This document shows positions 4,663-31,839 of a stretch of DNA of 44,239 nucleotides, one piece after another. Location: positions 1 to 44,239 of the forward strand of contig NZ_JACJLC010000024.1 in assembly GCF_016901955.1 (NCBI RefSeq), in the 5' to 3' direction. The notes beneath the pieces were generated by a model. That model was not told where the DNA came from. It was given only the letters and a program-made list of their open reading frames with translations, and ran no database searches. How positions within the stretch are numbered: the stretch's first letter is position 1; each line of letters opens with the position of its first letter. This DNA is from Pseudoflavonifractor phocaeensis. GTDB taxonomy: Bacteria > Bacillota > Clostridia > Oscillospirales > Oscillospiraceae. A program made the translations under genes and the position numbers.

Positions 4663-5877
4663 TTATGAATTTTCCCGGCAAGCACGAAGAATGGACAGGG
4701 GTGGGGCCTGGACAGGGAGATCCATATAAAATTTCATCTGAGGGATACGGGGCTCCTGAAGGGGAAAGCCGTCAGTGTCCGCCATCAGGGGAGCGGTGAG
4801 AGTCACCGGTTTCAGGCCGGGGCCAATGAGCTCCAGCTCATCTCCAACGGCAAACTTGTTACGCAGGGAGCACAGGGCCCGGCGGTCGGGGCCGCAGGAC
4901 TCCACCACAGCAACCACTTGCCAGTCCCGAATATACCGGGCATCGCCGGTGTACTGTCCGGGCTGGCCAAACCAGAAGCCGGTGGAGTAGGGCCGGTGGC
5001 TCACCTTGTCCACCTCCGCCCGCCACACCGGGTCCAGAGCATGGCCTTCCGCCGCCGCATCAATGGCATGGCGGTAGGCAGCGGTAACGGCAGCGGCATA
5101 ATAGGCGCTTTTGGCACGGCCTTCGATCTTCAGAGAGTCTACTCCGGCTTCCATCAGCTCCGGGATGTGGTCGATCATACACATGTCCCGGGAGTTCATG
5201 ATATAGGCGCCCCCCTCGTCCTCCCCAATGGGGAAGTATTCCCCAGGGCGCTTTTCCTCGACCAGGGCGTACTTGTAGCGGCAGGGCTGAGCACAGGCTC
5301 CCCGGTTGGCGTCCCGTCCGGTCATATAGTTGGACAGGAGGCATCGGCCGGAGTAGCTAACACACATGGCGCCGTGGACAAAGGCCTCGATCTCCAGTTC
5401 CCTGGGGGCTTTGGCCCTGATCTCCCGCACCTCTTCCAGGGAGAGCTCCCTGGCCAGGATCACCCGGCTGGCCCCCAGCTCGTACCAGGCCCGGGCAGCC
5501 TGGTAGTTGGAGATGCTGGCCTGGGTGGAGATGTGGGCCTTCACCTTGGGGGCGTAGCGTTTGAGCAGAGAGAGCACCCCCACGTCGGCCACGATAGCGG
5601 CGTCCACCTCCAGGTCCTGGAGGTATTCCAGCCACTCCGGCAGCCTGTCCACCTCCCGGTTGCGGGGCATGGTGTTGCAGGTGACGTGGACGGATACGTC
5701 CCGACTGTGGCAGAGCTCCACCGCCTGGCGCATCTGGTCGGGGGTGAAATTACCGGCGAAGGCTCGCATACCGAAGTCGCTGCCCGCCAGATAGACCGCG
5801 TCCGCGCCGTAGGCCAGCGACATCCGCAGCCGTTCCATGTCCCCGGCGGGGGAAAGCAGTTCAATTTTATCAGCCAT
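4663..5877 (-). CDS. U32 family protein, TrhP-like tRNA hydroxylation factor
   Basis: The start is the ATG at 5877, giving MADKIELLSPAGDMERL, the normal N-terminus of this family; the frame continues 25 codons upstream into mltG but without need. AGGAG sits 9-10 nt before this ATG, and the first 8 nt overlap the mltG stop, so the two genes are translationally coupled. The 404-residue protein carries the U32 signature EAFVHGAMCVSYSGRC (about 164-179) and four cysteines (172, 179, 195, 199) able to hold an Fe-S cluster. U32 proteins of this kind (TrhP/YrrO) support prephenate-dependent 5-hydroxyuridine formation at tRNA position 34 and are not true peptidases. In related Firmicutes mltG is followed by trmR and one or two U32 genes; here trmR is absent. 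Confidence 0.85.
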   Translation of the reverse strand: MADKIELLSPAGDMERLRMSLAYGADAVYLAGSDFGMRAFAGNFTPDQMRQAVELCHSRDVSVHVTCNTMPRNREVDRLPEWLEYLQDLEVDAAIVADVGVLSLLKRYAPKVKAHISTQASISNYQAARAWYELGASRVILARELSLEEVREIRAKAPRELEIEAFVHGAMCVSYSGRCLLSNYMTGRDANRGACAQPCRYKYALVEEKRPGEYFPIGEDEGGAYIMNSRDMCMIDHIPELMEAGVDSLKIEGRAKSAYYAAAVTAAYRHAIDAAAEGHALDPVWRAEVDKVSHRPYSTGFWFGQPGQYTGDARYIRDWQVVAVVESCGPDRRALCSLRNKFAVGDELELIGPGLKPVTLTAPLMADTDGFPLQEPRIPQMKFYMDLPVQAPPLSILRACRENS

Positions 5878-16993: not shown

Positions 16994-17414
16994 CCAGAAT
17001 GCAGGCGGCGGAGCAGCTGCGGCGGGCCTTGCAGCTGTTTGCCAATACGTTGAGCGAGGAGCAGGCCCTGGAGGTAGCGGCGGTCTACCCGGCCTGGGAG
17101 GCGGGCAAAAGCTACGCCGTGGGGGATATCCTTTCCTACGGCACCAACCAGGTGGGGGACCCCCAGCTGTACAAGGTGGTGCAGGCCCACACCAGCCAGG
17201 CCGACTGGCTGCCCGGCCAGGGCACCGACAGCCTGTACGACGCCTTCGGGCTGAACCAGGCGGGCTATCCGGTGTGGAGCCAGCCCACCGGGGCCCATGA
17301 CGCTTACAACAAGGGAGACATTGTGGACTACAACGGCACGCTGTACCGCTCCCTCATTGACGGGAATACCTGGGCCCCTGACGCCTACCCGGCTGGGTGG
17401 GAGGTGTACACTGC

Positions 17415-17418
<4 letters not shown>
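16990..17418 (+). CDS. Carbohydrate-binding-module-like tail protein
   Basis: The 142-residue protein has an N-terminal helix ([20 protein letters not shown]) then two similar aromatic-rich modules: [19 protein letters not shown]...[16 protein letters not shown] and [18 protein letters not shown]...[13 protein letters not shown]. The pattern of a Trp, KGD, an aromatic YRS/YKV strand and a final WxP is that of chitin-binding CBM5/12 folds. Such domains occur on phage tail proteins that touch host glycans. No signal peptide is seen. The stop codon overlaps the TTG start of the collagen-like gene (TTGA). Confidence 0.72.
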
Positions 17419-19397
<1,979 letters not shown>

Positions 19398-19412
19398 CAG
19401 GAGGGAAAGGCA

Positions 19413-20099
19413 ATGTCCAACAGTACTTTGATTTCCTACACCAAGCTGTCTCCCAACAAGAACAGCCCCAGGAACCACAAGATCGACACCATCACCATCC
19501 ACCACATGGCGGCGGTGAACGCCACCATCGAGGCCTGCGGGGCCGGGTTCGCCCAAAGCTCCCGGCAGGCCTCCGCCAACTACGGCATCGGCAGCGACGG
19601 GCGGATCGCCCTGTACGTGGACGAGGCCGACCGGTCCTGGGCCAGCTCCAACGGCGCCAACGACCACCGGGCGGTGACCATCGAGGTGGCCAACAGCGAC
19701 GGCGAGCCCAACTGGCCTGTGTCTGAGAAAGCCTACACCGCCCTCATCGACCTGTGTACTGACATCTGCCGCCGCAACGGCATCTCCAAGCTGGTGTGGG
19801 CAACCTCCAAGAGCGACCGGGTGGACCACAGGAACGGGGCCAACATGACGGTGCACCAGGACTTTGCCGCCACCGCCTGCCCGGGGCCCTACCTGCTGGG
19901 CAAAATGGCCGACATCGCCGCCCAGGTCAACGCCAGGCTGTCCGTCAATGTGGAGCCCGCCTCGGAGTGGGCACAGGAAGCCTGGCAGAAGGCGGCCAAC
20001 CTGGGGATCTTCGACGGAACCGACCCGCAAGGCCCCATGACCCGGGAGCAGGCCGCCCTGGTGCTGGACCGGCTGGGACTGCTGGAAGGGGGGAGCTGA
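19413..20099 (+). CDS. N-acetylmuramoyl-L-alanine amidase (endolysin-like, Amidase_2)
   Basis: The 228-residue enzyme cuts the bond between MurNAc and the stem peptide. Zinc ligands are visible: His30/His31 in DTITIHHMA, His148 in MTVHQDF and Cys156 in ATACPGPYL. NYGIGSDGRIALYVDE and NDHRAVTIEVANS are standard amidase-2 motifs. A short C-terminal SLH-like repeat (SEWAQEAWQKAANLGIF...TREQAALVLDRL) would bind cell-wall polymer. There is no signal peptide, so release to the wall would depend on the holin encoded one base downstream. AGGAGGG lies before the ATG. Confidence 0.93.
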   Translation: MSNSTLISYTKLSPNKNSPRNHKIDTITIHHMAAVNATIEACGAGFAQSSRQASANYGIGSDGRIALYVDEADRSWASSNGANDHRAVTIEVANSDGEPNWPVSEKAYTALIDLCTDICRRNGISKLVWATSKSDRVDHRNGANMTVHQDFAATACPGPYLLGKMADIAAQVNARLSVNVEPASEWAQEAWQKAANLGIFDGTDPQGPMTREQAALVLDRLGLLEGGS

Positions 20100-20100
20100 T

Positions 20101-20556
20101 ATGGAGAACGTCAACGCCTTCAAGGCCGCTGTGGCCGCCCTTGGTGCCGCCCTCACCGCCCTGTGGGGGTGGTTTGGCTGGGTGGTGCTGGCCTGGATCG
20201 GGCTGATGGTCATCGACTACATCACCGGCTCCGCCGCCGCCCTCCGGGCGGGGAAATGGTCCAGCAAGACCGCCCGGGACGGCATCTGGCACAAGCTGGG
20301 CAGCGTGGTGGCCGTCATCGTCTCGGCCATCCTGGACGTGGTCATCGGCCACCTGCTGGCCAACATGCCGGCGGTGGAGCTGCCCTTCGCCTACTCGGTG
20401 CTCCTCTGCCCCCTGGTGGTCATGTGGTACATCCTCACCGAGGCCGGCTCCATCATCGAAAACGCAGGAGAGCTGGGGGCGCCTGTTCCGGACTGGCTGG
20501 CCAAAACGGTGGAGAGCCTGAGCCAGAAGGCGAATCAGGCGGGTCAGGGGAAATAG
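20101..20556 (+). CDS. Phage-type holin
   Basis: The 151-residue protein has several hydrophobic segments (about 6-40, 62-85 and 92-122). It carries family features LMVIDYITGSAAALRAGKWSS and SVLLCPLVVMWYILTEAGSIIENAGELG, which match the TcdE/Cph1-like phage holin family. It would form pores in the membrane and let the amidase, and perhaps the fibre protein, leave the cell. The polar C-terminal tail is cytoplasmic in this family. GGGGGGAG lies before the ATG, which follows the amidase stop by one base. It ends the seven-gene cassette. Confidence 0.92.
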   Translation: MENVNAFKAAVAALGAALTALWGWFGWVVLAWIGLMVIDYITGSAAALRAGKWSSKTARDGIWHKLGSVVAVIVSAILDVVIGHLLANMPAVELPFAYSVLLCPLVVMWYILTEAGSIIENAGELGAPVPDWLAKTVESLSQKANQAGQGK

Positions 20557-29491: not shown

Positions 29492-29524
29492 CAAAAAGTG
29501 CCCGGGATAAACATCCCGGGCACT
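29492..29524 (-). terminator. Original rplL terminator, now stranded behind the duplicated rplL end
   Basis: On the minus strand AGTGCCCGGGAT pairs with ATCCCGGGCACT and runs into TTTTTGT. It lies 23 nt beyond the end of the left rplL 3' copy, which suggests it terminated rplL before the insertion. Confidence 0.8.
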
Positions 29525-29546
29525 CTTGTCGTGTTGATAAAAGAAG

Positions 29547-29639
29547 CTTACTTCAGCTCCACCTTGGCGCCGACTTCCTCCAGCTTCTTCTTGAGCTCCT
29601 CGGCCTCGTCCTTGGACACGCCCTCCTTGATGGCCTTGG
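29547..29639 (-). repeat. Left 93-bp direct repeat: detached copy of the rplL 3' end (attL-like)
   Basis: Bases 29547-29639 are identical to 31464-31556, the last 30 codons and stop of rplL. Identity breaks off sharply at GGCCTTGG on one side and CTTAC on the other. No start or promoter belongs to this copy. It is the left end of the integrated element. Confidence 0.93.
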
Positions 29640-29719
29640 CCCCATGCGGCATATGCTTCGCATAGGGCCACAGAGACGGCCATCACCAATCGGTGGCTGG
29701 GAGGCGAGGTGTTACCTGG

Positions 29720-29747
29720 TTGACTAGAACAAACGTTCTGGTATAAC
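29720..29747 (+). promoter_or_regulatory. Promoter of the element with an embedded LexA (SOS) box
   Basis: TTGACT (29720-29725), a 16-nt spacer and TATAAC (29742-29747). The spacer contains AGAACAAACGTTCT (29726-29739), a perfect palindrome at its arms that fits the Gram-positive LexA consensus GAACRNRYGTTC. LexA bound here would block the promoter and DNA damage would release it. The hairpin TATGCTTCGCATA lies about 60 nt upstream near the element's left end. Confidence 0.75.
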
Positions 29748-29768
29748 ATACGGCTGGAGGTGAACCAA

Positions 29769-30161
29769 GTGGAAAACACAGTGGAAAACCTGGGGAAAGC
29801 CCGGGGAATGGTGGAAAACATCAGGGAATACGCCCAAATGCCGGAAATCCGCAGTTACGAGCGGGAGGCCATGGCCCAGGCCCTGGAGGCGGCCAGGAGC
29901 CTGCCGGAGCCGGAGCGGGCCAGGATCATGGAGGCCCTGGAGAAAGTGGCCCAGGCGGGCGCCAGGGCGGCCAGGCGGCGCCATACAAACGCAGACTACG
30001 AGGGCAGGCGCCGCAGGCTGGTGGGGGCGCAGATGCCCATCGGCATGGCGGACAGGGTGCGGCGGTGCGCCCAGGCCCAGGGCCTCAGCGTCTATGCCTT
30101 CGTCATGGAAGCCGTGGAGGCGGCCTGCAATGAAACGGATGTTCTACTCAATTTCCGGTAG
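29769..30161 (+). CDS. Ribbon-helix-helix-like DNA-binding protein of the element
   Basis: GTG 29769 is chosen because GGAGG (29756-29760) lies 8 nt before it; an earlier GTG overlaps that site. The 130-residue protein has an N-terminal helical, charged part (ENLGKARGMVENIREYAQ, EREAMAQALEAARSLPEPER) and a basic centre (GARAARRRHTNADYEGRRRR). It ends with VGAQMPIGMADRVRRCAQAQGLSVYAFVMEAVEAA, split as a strand, a helix, GLS and a second helix, as in Arc/MetJ-type folds. I cannot name a family. It is the first gene after the LexA-box promoter and may bind the iterons that follow (inference). Confidence 0.65.
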   Translation: MENTVENLGKARGMVENIREYAQMPEIRSYEREAMAQALEAARSLPEPERARIMEALEKVAQAGARAARRRHTNADYEGRRRRLVGAQMPIGMADRVRRCAQAQGLSVYAFVMEAVEAACNETDVLLNFR

Positions 30162-30210
30162 CAGCTGAAGGAGGTGGTTGTGTCAGTTGGTTTCCTCAGT
30201 TGGTTAGTGG

Positions 30211-30278
30211 GCGGAAAAGCGCCCGGGTGGGGGGTCGAAAAGCGCCCGGGTGGAGGGCGGAAAAGTGCCCGGGTACCG
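30211..30278 (+). repeat. Three iterons with a 23-bp period
   Basis: The core GAAAAGYGCCCGGGT occurs at 30214, 30237 and 30260, exactly 23 bp apart, with near-identical flanks. Each unit can also fold as GGGCG/CGCCC around an A-rich loop (weaker in the second). Such arrays are typical binding sites for replication initiators, transposases or partition proteins. Two CAGTTGGTT copies 13 bp apart lie just upstream. Confidence 0.8.
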
Positions 30279-30444
30279 ATCCGGCGGGCGTACTGGCTGG
30301 CCCGCCGGATAGGGTGCCCTGGAGCGGGTCGAAGAGCCCCGGCCACCGGGCGTACCATTGCCCGGCGGCGGGAGAGGGGGAGGTGGGCGCCAGCGCCGTA
30401 ATCGAAGCGTGGGTGCAAGCGGCCGCTCGACCCTCTCATTGTGT

Positions 30445-30508
30445 ACCAGGCCCGTCAAGGGCAAGGCAAGCGGCCTTGCGGGGGACGGCCGCCCTTGACA
30501 GCCCTGGT
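30445..30508 (+). other. Long hairpin before the HNH gene
   Basis: ACCAGG (30445-30450) pairs with CCTGGT (30503-30508), GTCAAGGGC (30454-30462) with GCCCTTGAC (30491-30499), and an inner GCGGCC with GGCCGC. The stem lies 45 nt before the HNH start. There is no T tract, so it is not a plain terminator. Confidence 0.6.
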
Positions 30509-30552
30509 GCGCCGCCAGGTGGCCCGAGCGGCCGGAAAGGAGGGCGCCACAC

Positions 30553-30873
30553 ATGATCAGCGCCAACATCAGCAACGAGACCAGGAAGGCGGTTTACCGC
30601 CGGGACGGATACCGGTGCGCCCTGTGCGACAGCACAAAGTACCTCCAGATCCATCACTGCATCAAGCGCAGCAAGGGGGGCACCAGCAGCCCGGAGAACC
30701 TGATCACCCTCTGCGCAGACTGCCACGCCCTGGCCCACGGCACCAACCTAAACGGCTGGGACGCCACTCAGAAGGACGTGGAGCAGGCGGTGGTGGAGTA
30801 CCTGGCGGACTACTACGCCCCGGACTGGAACCCCTGGAGGAAGGGAGAGGAGCCATGGAGGGGGGAGCCGTAA
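30553..30873 (+). CDS. HNH endonuclease
   Basis: The 106-residue protein is a stand-alone HNH nuclease. CALCDSTKYLQIHHCIKRSKGGTSSPENLITLCADCHALAHG contains the two CxxC zinc pairs (CALC and CADC), the catalytic IHH, and the Asn and final His of the motif. A short helical tail rich in Trp and Glu follows. GGAGGG precedes the ATG by 8 nt. Such enzymes serve as homing endonucleases, in phage packaging, or in defence. Here the gene sits inside the element bounded by the rplL duplication, which makes a homing or mobility role plausible but unproved. Confidence 0.9.
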   Translation: MISANISNETRKAVYRRDGYRCALCDSTKYLQIHHCIKRSKGGTSSPENLITLCADCHALAHGTNLNGWDATQKDVEQAVVEYLADYYAPDWNPWRKGEEPWRGEP

Positions 30874-31396
30874 GGACCCCCCTTCCCATATCCGGGGAGG
30901 GGGGAGGCCGCCGGGAACGATACGGGGGTTTAGTGGTGCCCGCCCCTCGTCGGGGGGTGGTTGTGTTCCGTGGTCTGCCCGTGGCCGCCCGGGGCGCCCC
31001 GGCCCGCCCGTCGGCCCGCCGCCGGTCCGGGTCTCGCCTTGCGGGGGTCGGCGGCCCCGGCTGCGGCGCCGCCCCGCCGTGCGTCCGGGCTGCGGGGGCC
31101 GGTGGGGCTGGCCCCCTTGGCCTATCGGCGGCCCCTCGGCCCCCCCTTTTCGTTCCCGGCTGCCAGGTGGTGTCGTGGCCTGGCGCCATATGCTGTGGCG
31201 GGGCGGTGATCGTTGCGCAATGGGTGGTGCCCGGTCGGGTGGGCGCCCCGGCGCCGGGGGGCCACGCTTCGCAGGCTCGCTATCCGCACCCCCCGGCCCG
31301 AGGCATCCCCCCGCCCCTCGGTGGGTTGGTGGTTCCGCCCGGGTAGGCGTGGTACTTTTTGCCAGAGCGGTGCCGCCGGGCGGGAGACGGAGGAAC
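30874..31396 (+). other. Very G+C-rich region without a credible gene
   Basis: About 520 bp of strongly G+C-rich sequence follow the HNH stop. Many reading frames stay open on both strands, but all give Arg/Pro/Gly/Ala-rich low-complexity products without ribosome sites, as expected from composition alone. The region is full of self-complementary patches, for example CCGGGGCGCCCCGG near 30989 and GGCGCCCCGGCGCC near 31243. It may be a structured RNA or recombination site of the element. Confidence 0.5.
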
Positions 31397-31440
31397 ACAA
31401 GATAAGGCCCCCCGGCTTGCGCCGGAGGGCCTTATCTTGT
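31397..31440. terminator. Terminator now serving rplL, inside the element
   Basis: ACAAGATAAGGCCC-C-CCGGC pairs with GCCGG-A-GGGCCTTATCTTGT over about 20 bp around TTGC. It lies 24 nt after the rplL stop and could end transcription from either side. Confidence 0.78.
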
Positions 31441-31463
31441 GGTTTCGGTAGTTGGCAGGAGAA

Positions 31464-31556
31464 CTTACTTCAGCTCCACCTTGGCGCCGACTTCCTCCAG
31501 CTTCTTCTTGAGCTCCTCGGCCTCGTCCTTGGACACGCCCTCCTTGATGGCCTTGG
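31464..31556 (-). repeat. Right 93-bp direct repeat: 3' end of intact rplL (attR-like)
   Basis: Identical to 29547-29639. This copy is joined to the rest of rplL and supplies its last 30 codons and stop. Confidence 0.93.
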
Positions 31557-31839
31557 GGGCAGCCTCGACGGCAGCCTTAGCCTCAGCCAGGCCCAGGCCG
31601 GTGATCTCACGGACAGCCTTGATGACCTTGATCTTCTCGGCGCCGATCTCAGCCAGAACGACGTCGAACTCGGTCTTCTCCTCAGCGGCAGGAGCGGCAG
31701 CGCCACCAGCGGCGGGAGCGGCCATAGCGGCGGCGGAAACACCAAACTCCTCCTCCAGAGCGTGGACGAGCTCGGAGAGCTCCAGAACAGTCAGACCCTT
31801 AACCTCTTCAATGAGGGCAGTGATTTTCTCAGAAGCCAT
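31465..31839 (-). CDS. rplL: Ribosomal protein L7/L12
   Basis: The 124-residue protein has the N-terminal dimer domain ([21 protein letters not shown]), an Ala-rich hinge ([19 protein letters not shown]) and the C-terminal domain that recruits translation factors ([40 protein letters not shown]). It forms the ribosome stalk with L10, encoded just upstream. AGGAGG precedes the ATG. Its last 93 bp are duplicated at 29547-29639 because an element inserted at its 3' end. The coding sequence itself is intact. Confidence 0.98.

Follow-up and report, generated by a model that had tools for sequence, protein, structure and literature searches.

A small HNH nuclease element at the 3' end of rplL in Pseudoflavonifractor phocaeensis and its relatives at other sites

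Why does the end of a ribosomal protein gene occur twice in close succession on one chromosome? In a 44,239-nt stretch of DNA from Pseudoflavonifractor phocaeensis (assembly GCF_016901955.1, contig NZ_JACJLC010000024.1, positions 1 to 44,239; "the window" below), the last 93 bp of rplL stand as sharp-ended direct repeats, 100% identical, at 29547-29639 and 31464-31556, 1917 bp apart from start to start. The 1,824 bp of unique DNA between them (29640-31463, plus strand) has a related insert in a second genome, G257. A first interpretation made from the letters alone (the sequence-only reading) had noticed this duplication, which is confirmed here, and had left a choice between a satellite mobilised in trans, a decayed island and homing driven by the HNH nuclease encoded in the insert. 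We find that the insert belongs to a new family of mobile elements, here called HNH elements, a conclusion that is well supported. It is somewhat probable, in our judgement, that these are small SOS-linked elements that insert through HNH cutting at hairpin-marked ends and duplicate about 40-90 bp of the target.

Searched with an alignment of nine nucleases, 400 genomes of the bacterial family gave the nuclease at E<=1e-20 in 20, belonging to 14 of 106 genera. A single scan across a genome collection yielded 49 nuclease loci, whose titles name mostly Oscillospiraceae, Flavonifractor, Oscillibacter and other Clostridiales or Eubacteriales, with one Lachnospiraceae and one very weak outlier. Direct repeats of at least 37 bp enclose 29 of the 49 loci, and in 14 the contig breaks off no more than about 0.85 kb from the nuclease. 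(L115, with a repeat at 81% identity, was counted because its repeat holds a tRNA end; L139, with a 137-bp repeat also at 81%, 2.8 kb apart, was not.) The 33 loci studied in detail comprise all of the 29 except the tandem locus L111, which makes 28, together with the window and four loci from the 400-genome search. Their repeats are 37-236 bp long (median 55) and mostly represent different host sequences; unit length, from repeat to repeat, is 1,028-2,268 bp (median 1,482 if the tandem L137 is set aside), and G+C is higher than in the flanks in 30 of the 33, the window insert standing at 68.7% against 61.0% for the window. The constant protein is an HNH nuclease of 98-140 aa.

All 33 loci share one compact plan with intact nuclease frames, and they come from isolates and metagenome assemblies alike. 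A decayed island or an assembly artefact could account for the short size and for the contig breaks beside the nuclease at 14 of the 49 loci, but such a recurring plan makes this explanation very improbable, and the island offered by the sequence-only reading finds no support. No description of the family was found in the open-access literature searched, which is not proof of absence elsewhere. Viral contigs gave two weak nuclease matches, and in phage and plasmid records the HNH matches were all distant, at less than 60% identity; a phage or plasmid origin was rejected on these grounds. A defence system was likewise rejected, the PADLOC matches being to generic HNH domains.

Where do the elements insert? 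The rplL 3' end was the target twice, but the family uses many sites, so a special link to rplL is not supported. Other insertions lie at the 3' ends of the genes for YchF, an acryloyl-CoA reductase/EtfA-type protein and a YfcE-type phosphodiesterase, at the 5' ends of those for Der and RsmI, and at the 3' ends of the RNA genes for tRNA-Leu, tRNA-Thr and 6S RNA. At the 6S RNA target (L084:5450-5649), a 49-bp repeat at 5600-5648 covers the RNA end. A further target is the 3' end of what we take, from its motifs, to be the acetate kinase gene, a site that is empty in five relatives (L173-L176, L179). Two elements, L097 and L141, occupy the same gene 8 nt apart.

Yanshouia hominis BX1 carries several copies, among which L110 and L111 share segments that are 94.6-97% identical and lie at different sites between different repeats; L105 and L107 (the D5 copies) are 97% identical. 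Oscillibacter sp. MSJ-31 has units in tandem with an additional, third copy of the repeat (65 bp, all three identical), and L111 shows the same kind of arrangement. Occupied and empty sites, and several copies at different sites, are thus both on record, as is generally expected of a mobile element. Capture of a gene end plus host divergence was rejected as the sole source of the repeats, since copies inside one genome have new ones. From their translations, L110 and L111 also appear to lie inside or beside IS200-type and IS256-type insertion sequences.

Could an integrase acting in trans have moved these elements? It would be the tyrosine (or other) integrase of an integrative and conjugative element (ICE), an integrative and mobilizable element (IME) or a prophage, and the repeats would be att sites carrying the gene end. 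The 3' ends of rplL and of tRNA genes are classical attachment sites, the elements of the window and G257 entered rplL at the same point, and a repeat that ends at the stop codon, with carried terminators, resembles a carried attP arm. In Streptococcus suis, Tn5252-family ICEs lie in the rplL 3' end, sometimes in tandem, and such ICEs and IMEs likewise restore the gene, are flanked by direct repeats and accrete in tandem (PMC7168690). These encode an integrase and transfer genes, however, and none are seen in the HNH elements, whose targets are not fixed. ICEs and IMEs in gene 3' ends are also much larger than the HNH elements.

A site-specific integrase needs a shared core, on the other hand, and the repeats (37-236 bp) are specific to each site, with no common core. 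Compared at 16 positions, the targets of L102 and L108 match at 4 and those of L116 and L121 at 6 (nucleases 89% identical), the mean of the rest being 4.5; nucleases this similar in unrelated targets argue against a borrowed site-specific integrase. No integrase, tyrosine or serine, was seen in the elements as far as their open reading frames (ORFs) were read. For the rplL insert, the sequence-only reading had already noted that no integrase is to be seen, and rightly so: no integrase, transposase or resolvase was seen, and in a Pfam scan of the four ORFs of the insert the HNH ORF alone passed the cut-off. A search for the rplL end gave a match in 348 of the 400 family genomes and two matches in six (the window genome, G001, G034, G319, G398 and G402); among the matches listed, a partial end beside an intact gene is found in the window genome only, the other five not having been opened. 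A trans-mobilised satellite is therefore disfavoured, and we consider it unlikely.

The rplL site itself can be seen both occupied and empty. Of 20 same-genus genomes, 17 yielded the gene, and in each of these the 130 nt after its stop codon were read: in 15, rplL runs straight into unlike sequence with no element, an empty site of the general kind that the sequence-only reading had proposed to look for, and the occupied two are the window genome and G257. The latter (contig CALWOL010000010.1) was assembled separately and has the same arrangement at the same rplL point, so a simple assembly error, once named as an alternative, is unlikely. Its junction reads CCAAGG, as in the window, and its repeat is 143 bp at 98.6%; the insert has diverged, with a nuclease 82% identical, a ribbon-helix-helix (RHH)-like ORF 43% identical and a further small ORF. 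No empty site beside G257's own flank was obtained, its downstream gene being located elsewhere in relatives. The window rplL is a mosaic: just upstream of the junction it is of the near-relative type, whereas downstream both copies carry G257-type variants (GAGCTCAAG, GGAGGAAG). To judge from these variants, the pattern speaks for arrival of the element by recombination in the conserved gene, or for later exchange through it.

That both repeat copies are of G257 type is also what donor conversion would give, and it is one reason to weigh homing with gene rescue, in which the nuclease cuts empty alleles and these, on repair, receive the element along with the gene end that it carries; occurrence at the same site in two species is another. 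In overall layout, the closest counterpart is the fungal mitochondrial mobile ORF (mORF). The mORFs of Allomyces atp6 and of Glomus atp6, atp9, cox2 and nad3 likewise combine an endonuclease gene with a carried gene 3' end, so that the gene remains intact while its native end is displaced downstream (PMC3630166). The window has the same order of parts: gene body with carried end, endonuclease ORF and displaced native end. The mORFs, by contrast, are mitochondrial, with an endonuclease of LAGLIDADG type (as named for atp6), and their carried end is clearly diverged, with 64-81% nucleotide identity to the relative (PMC3630166), whereas the HNH element repeats are mostly 93-100% identical. The HNH elements are bacterial, and unlike mORFs they also occupy gene starts and tRNA and 6S RNA ends, carry a LexA box and hairpin ends, and form tandem arrays.

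Against homing, the right-hand repeat with the native flank keeps the full target, and therefore the occupied allele is not shielded from a normal homing nuclease; the endonuclease of intron- or intein-type homing is there, but the insertion does not destroy its recognition site. Moreover, one lineage is found in unrelated targets and has spread inside one genome. Homing comes nearest of the three explanations first proposed, but falls short for want of such shielding. As the origin of these elements we think it improbable; homing between strains at rplL is a fair rival.

In the window, a hairpin read from the sequence (TATGC-TTC-GCATA, 29652-29664) lies 12 nt inside the junction of the left end (LE), at the same position as in G257/L096; other elements have different stems at this position, which vary and yet pair (TACGCC/GGCGTA, TGCGCC/GGCGCA, TGCCCC/GGGGCA, TTCCCC/GGGGAA). 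A short, perfect hairpin lies near the LE junction in many elements, at exactly 12 nt in 10 of 33 automatic picks. The hairpin score, for which any hairpin within the first 50 nt qualifies, averaged 12.95, and none of 50 base shuffles exceeded 8.36; for the window, the automatic pick lay further in than TATGC-TTC-GCATA. At the LE junction, the repeat ends in G in 26 of the 33 elements. The right ends (RE) have a G+C-rich hairpin and a loose junction: between L116 and L121, homology reaches near the junction at LE, whereas at RE it breaks off 10 and 19 nt before the junction, and L110 is without the last part of the RE hairpin that is present in L105, L107 and L111.

In the window, a perfect-stem inverted repeat near the RE end (31396-31441), related to sequence in G257, now forms the terminator of the intact rplL (124 aa, 31465-31839, minus strand; NCBIfam L7/L12, E 2.1e-46), whose functional 3' end is the right repeat (minus strand). 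The left repeat, also read on the minus strand and on the precise LE side, is an orphan, truncated copy of the gene end. Downstream of it, an inverted repeat (29494-29527, minus strand) with a run of T after it on that strand is most likely the resident rplL terminator, as the sequence-only reading had it; a similar GTGCCCGGG hairpin stands directly 3' of rplL in the relative L044.

Inside the elements, what recurs? The sequence-only reading had listed a LexA-type promoter, an RHH-like protein, iterons and an HNH gene; of these, the box and the HNH gene are confirmed, and box and RHH-like ORF recur in the family, but the iterons do not. The window box is GAACAAACGTTC (29727-29738). A perfect GAACN4GTTC occurs in 16 of 33 elements; base shuffling gave a mean of 0.38, and 66 flanking stretches of 1 kb had none. 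If one mismatch is allowed, the figures are 26 of 33, 11.6 and 12 of 66. The RHH-like protein of the window (133 aa, GTG start, 29760-30161, plus strand) is weakly Arc-like in Pfam (E 0.055) and has homologues in other elements: such an ORF is found in 24 of the 33 (8 of the 24 trained the profile) and in none of 1,090 flank ORFs, with weak Pfam support (one match at E 0.00095, others weaker).

The iterons form part of a stretch at 30183-30274 (plus strand), in which a 30-nt motif precedes three iteron-like repeats (30202-30274, 23-bp spacing), and among the 33 loci both are peculiar to the rplL copy in the window. A role as replication origin for the whole family was rejected, since they are confined to that copy. 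The same motif followed by repeats also occurs in the same genome at the 3' end of a RepA_N-type replication gene (L034, G000:C31, 3474-3956; Pfam RepA_N, E 5.2e-11) that adjoins an IstB/DnaC-like ATPase gene. Could 30183-30274 be a captured origin fragment? The likeness raises the question only.

The family hallmark, the HNH nuclease (106 aa, 30553-30873, plus strand; Pfam HNH, E 3.6e-10), is preceded directly 5' of its ribosome-binding site by a long structured stem (30422-30532, plus strand) with a GTCAAGGG..CCCTTGAC core and outer stems. Duplex folding of the arms gave this stem in 17 of 18 elements, L103 being negative with the arms chosen, and a covariance model (R1) from six training elements matched 20 loci outside the training set at E<=0.01, including the window (30427-30519, 24.6 bits, E 0.0033); matches sometimes fall on the opposite strand too, because the stem is near-palindromic. 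The AlphaFold2 model of the nuclease has a mean pLDDT of 89.2. Its best fold matches are the HNH of EcoKMcrA (E 2.3e-4) and IscB (4.0e-4), and its best profile matches IscB (1e-9), McrA (2.7e-7) and group II intron maturase (1.7e-6), from which it is predicted to be a nicking or cutting HNH enzyme with no diagnostic partner.

These features permit an RNA-mediated route, in which the structured RNA and the HNH protein would act as a ribonucleoprotein and a reverse transcriptase supplied in trans would copy the RNA into nicked DNA, the repeats arising from distant nicks. The long leader with its covariance model, one precise and one loose end, and a nuclease profile matching the HNH of group II intron maturase and IscB all fit, as do target-complementary stretches in the short structured repeats of the same genomes (described below). 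However, the elements have no reverse transcriptase, the leader may be simple translational control, and no guide was detected in the HNH elements at the LE junction, where complementarity to own and swapped targets averaged 7.50 and 7.78 (n=32; z -1.2 to 1.2, n=26-28). At the RE junction z reached 2.0, taken as noise among many tests. This route is quite doubtful, more so than homing or a borrowed integrase. Among known systems, IscB/HEARO and other HNH elements of the IS200/IS605 group likewise have a structured RNA upstream of the HNH ORF, and the fold matches the IscB HNH domain. The HNH elements differ in having no RuvC and no IscB-sized protein: where IscB/OMEGA systems have a RuvC-HNH protein, an omega RNA and a guide in the LE flank, here there are 106 aa, HNH only and no guide signal, and 10 element loci scanned gave no Rfam match at gathering score, host RNAs aside. 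IS200/IS605 insertion also leaves no long repeat. A group I or II intron was rejected, with no Rfam intron match up to E 5 in the window insert or up to E 1 in a short structured repeat.

How, then, might the elements move? The leading reading, to which we give about an even chance, is HNH-driven insertion with a long target duplication, the chemistry being inferred. DNA damage would release LexA and allow expression of the RHH-like protein; the HNH nuclease would nick or cut the target after a G, and the hairpin end (LE) would be joined exactly at this cut. The second strand would be opened some 40-90 bp away, RE would be joined loosely, and gap filling would produce the long direct repeats. 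Since the repeat would take in the gene end, a gene entered near its start or stop would survive. The rplL element would have arrived from a relative, or been exchanged with one, by recombination through the conserved gene, and for this reason its repeat would now end at the stop codon. We know of no type of recombinase that makes fresh 40-90-bp target duplications; DDE and serine enzymes are not known to leave such repeats.

It is possible, and put forward only tentatively, that the elements form a new class, hairpin-ended and SOS-controlled, with a tiny HNH nuclease as the only constant enzyme, one exact and one loose junction and 40-90-bp duplications, possibly acting as an RNA-protein particle, with the short structured repeats as RNA-guided relatives or riders. 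If so, an element of 1 kb, with a nuclease of 100 aa, would count among the smallest self-contained mobile units and offer a natural example of gene-sparing insertion. The duplicated gene ends and contig breaks that are frequent in gut Oscillospiraceae would then be explained as well.

Several observations weigh against HNH-driven insertion of SOS-linked elements. Six of the 49 nuclease loci have no accepted repeat; among the 33, seven have no LexA-type box even within one mismatch (and the 26 that do must be set beside the 11.6 of shuffled sequence), and nine lack the RHH-like ORF. Nuclease and target similarity are only faintly linked (r 0.087, with 23 of 500 permutations as high). Of the 16 HNH insertions that extend across a gene end (some of these ORFs are probably spurious), 6 have the outer end of the repeat no more than 3 nt from the stop codon, as do 9 of 13 short-structured-repeat insertions, a coincidence commoner than free staggered cutting would give. 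It may reflect exchange between strains with unlike noncoding flanks, or concerted evolution; it might also point to a mechanism tied to gene ends. Finally, mobility and the putative role of HNH are read from sequences. Given the faint nuclease-target link, the idea that the HNH sequence sets the target was rejected.

Two further kinds of mobile DNA invite comparison. Some casposon families encode an HNH endonuclease proposed to aid integration (PMC4046053), but casposons have Cas1, PolB and terminal inverted repeats and measure 6-16 kb for family 2, none of which applies to the HNH elements. Bacterial miniature inverted-repeat transposable elements (MITEs) and REP, BOX and RUP sequences are likewise small, structured, intergenic and in places tandem, but are without a nuclease. 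Their target duplications are short or absent, whereas the HNH elements have repeats of 37-236 bp. Nor do these fit the pattern of DDE insertion sequences or MITEs (terminal inverted repeats, a short target duplication, a DDE transposase), no transposase having been seen in the ORFs read.

The short structured repeats of the same genomes (L180-L208; for example L180:1501-1672, L187:1453-1637 and L193:1482-1643) are multicopy sequences of 131-185 bp, often in tandem, with a CAAGGTTTTGC..GCAAAACGCTTG core and no Rfam match. The core has 13 exact matches in G000 and none in the window. They usually lie between direct repeats of 41-131 bp at gene starts or ends, and the acetate kinase 3' end is a landing site shared with the HNH elements (L169, L170, L172, L088/L178), occupied by an HNH element in one genome and by short structured repeats in others, with different inner junctions. 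The RE tail of the short repeats has 9-14 nt complementary to the element's own target across the LE junction; the own target beats all swapped ones in 10 of 15 cases, and a further test gave z 12 (n=14). This stretch looks like a built-in guide, as far as base pairing can suggest one, and is possibly more surprising than the finding of the HNH elements themselves. Elsewhere in the window (17397-20556), translations suggest what may be a prophage remnant: a long, collagen-like (Gly-X-Y) ORF and, after it, amidase-like and holin-like ORFs.

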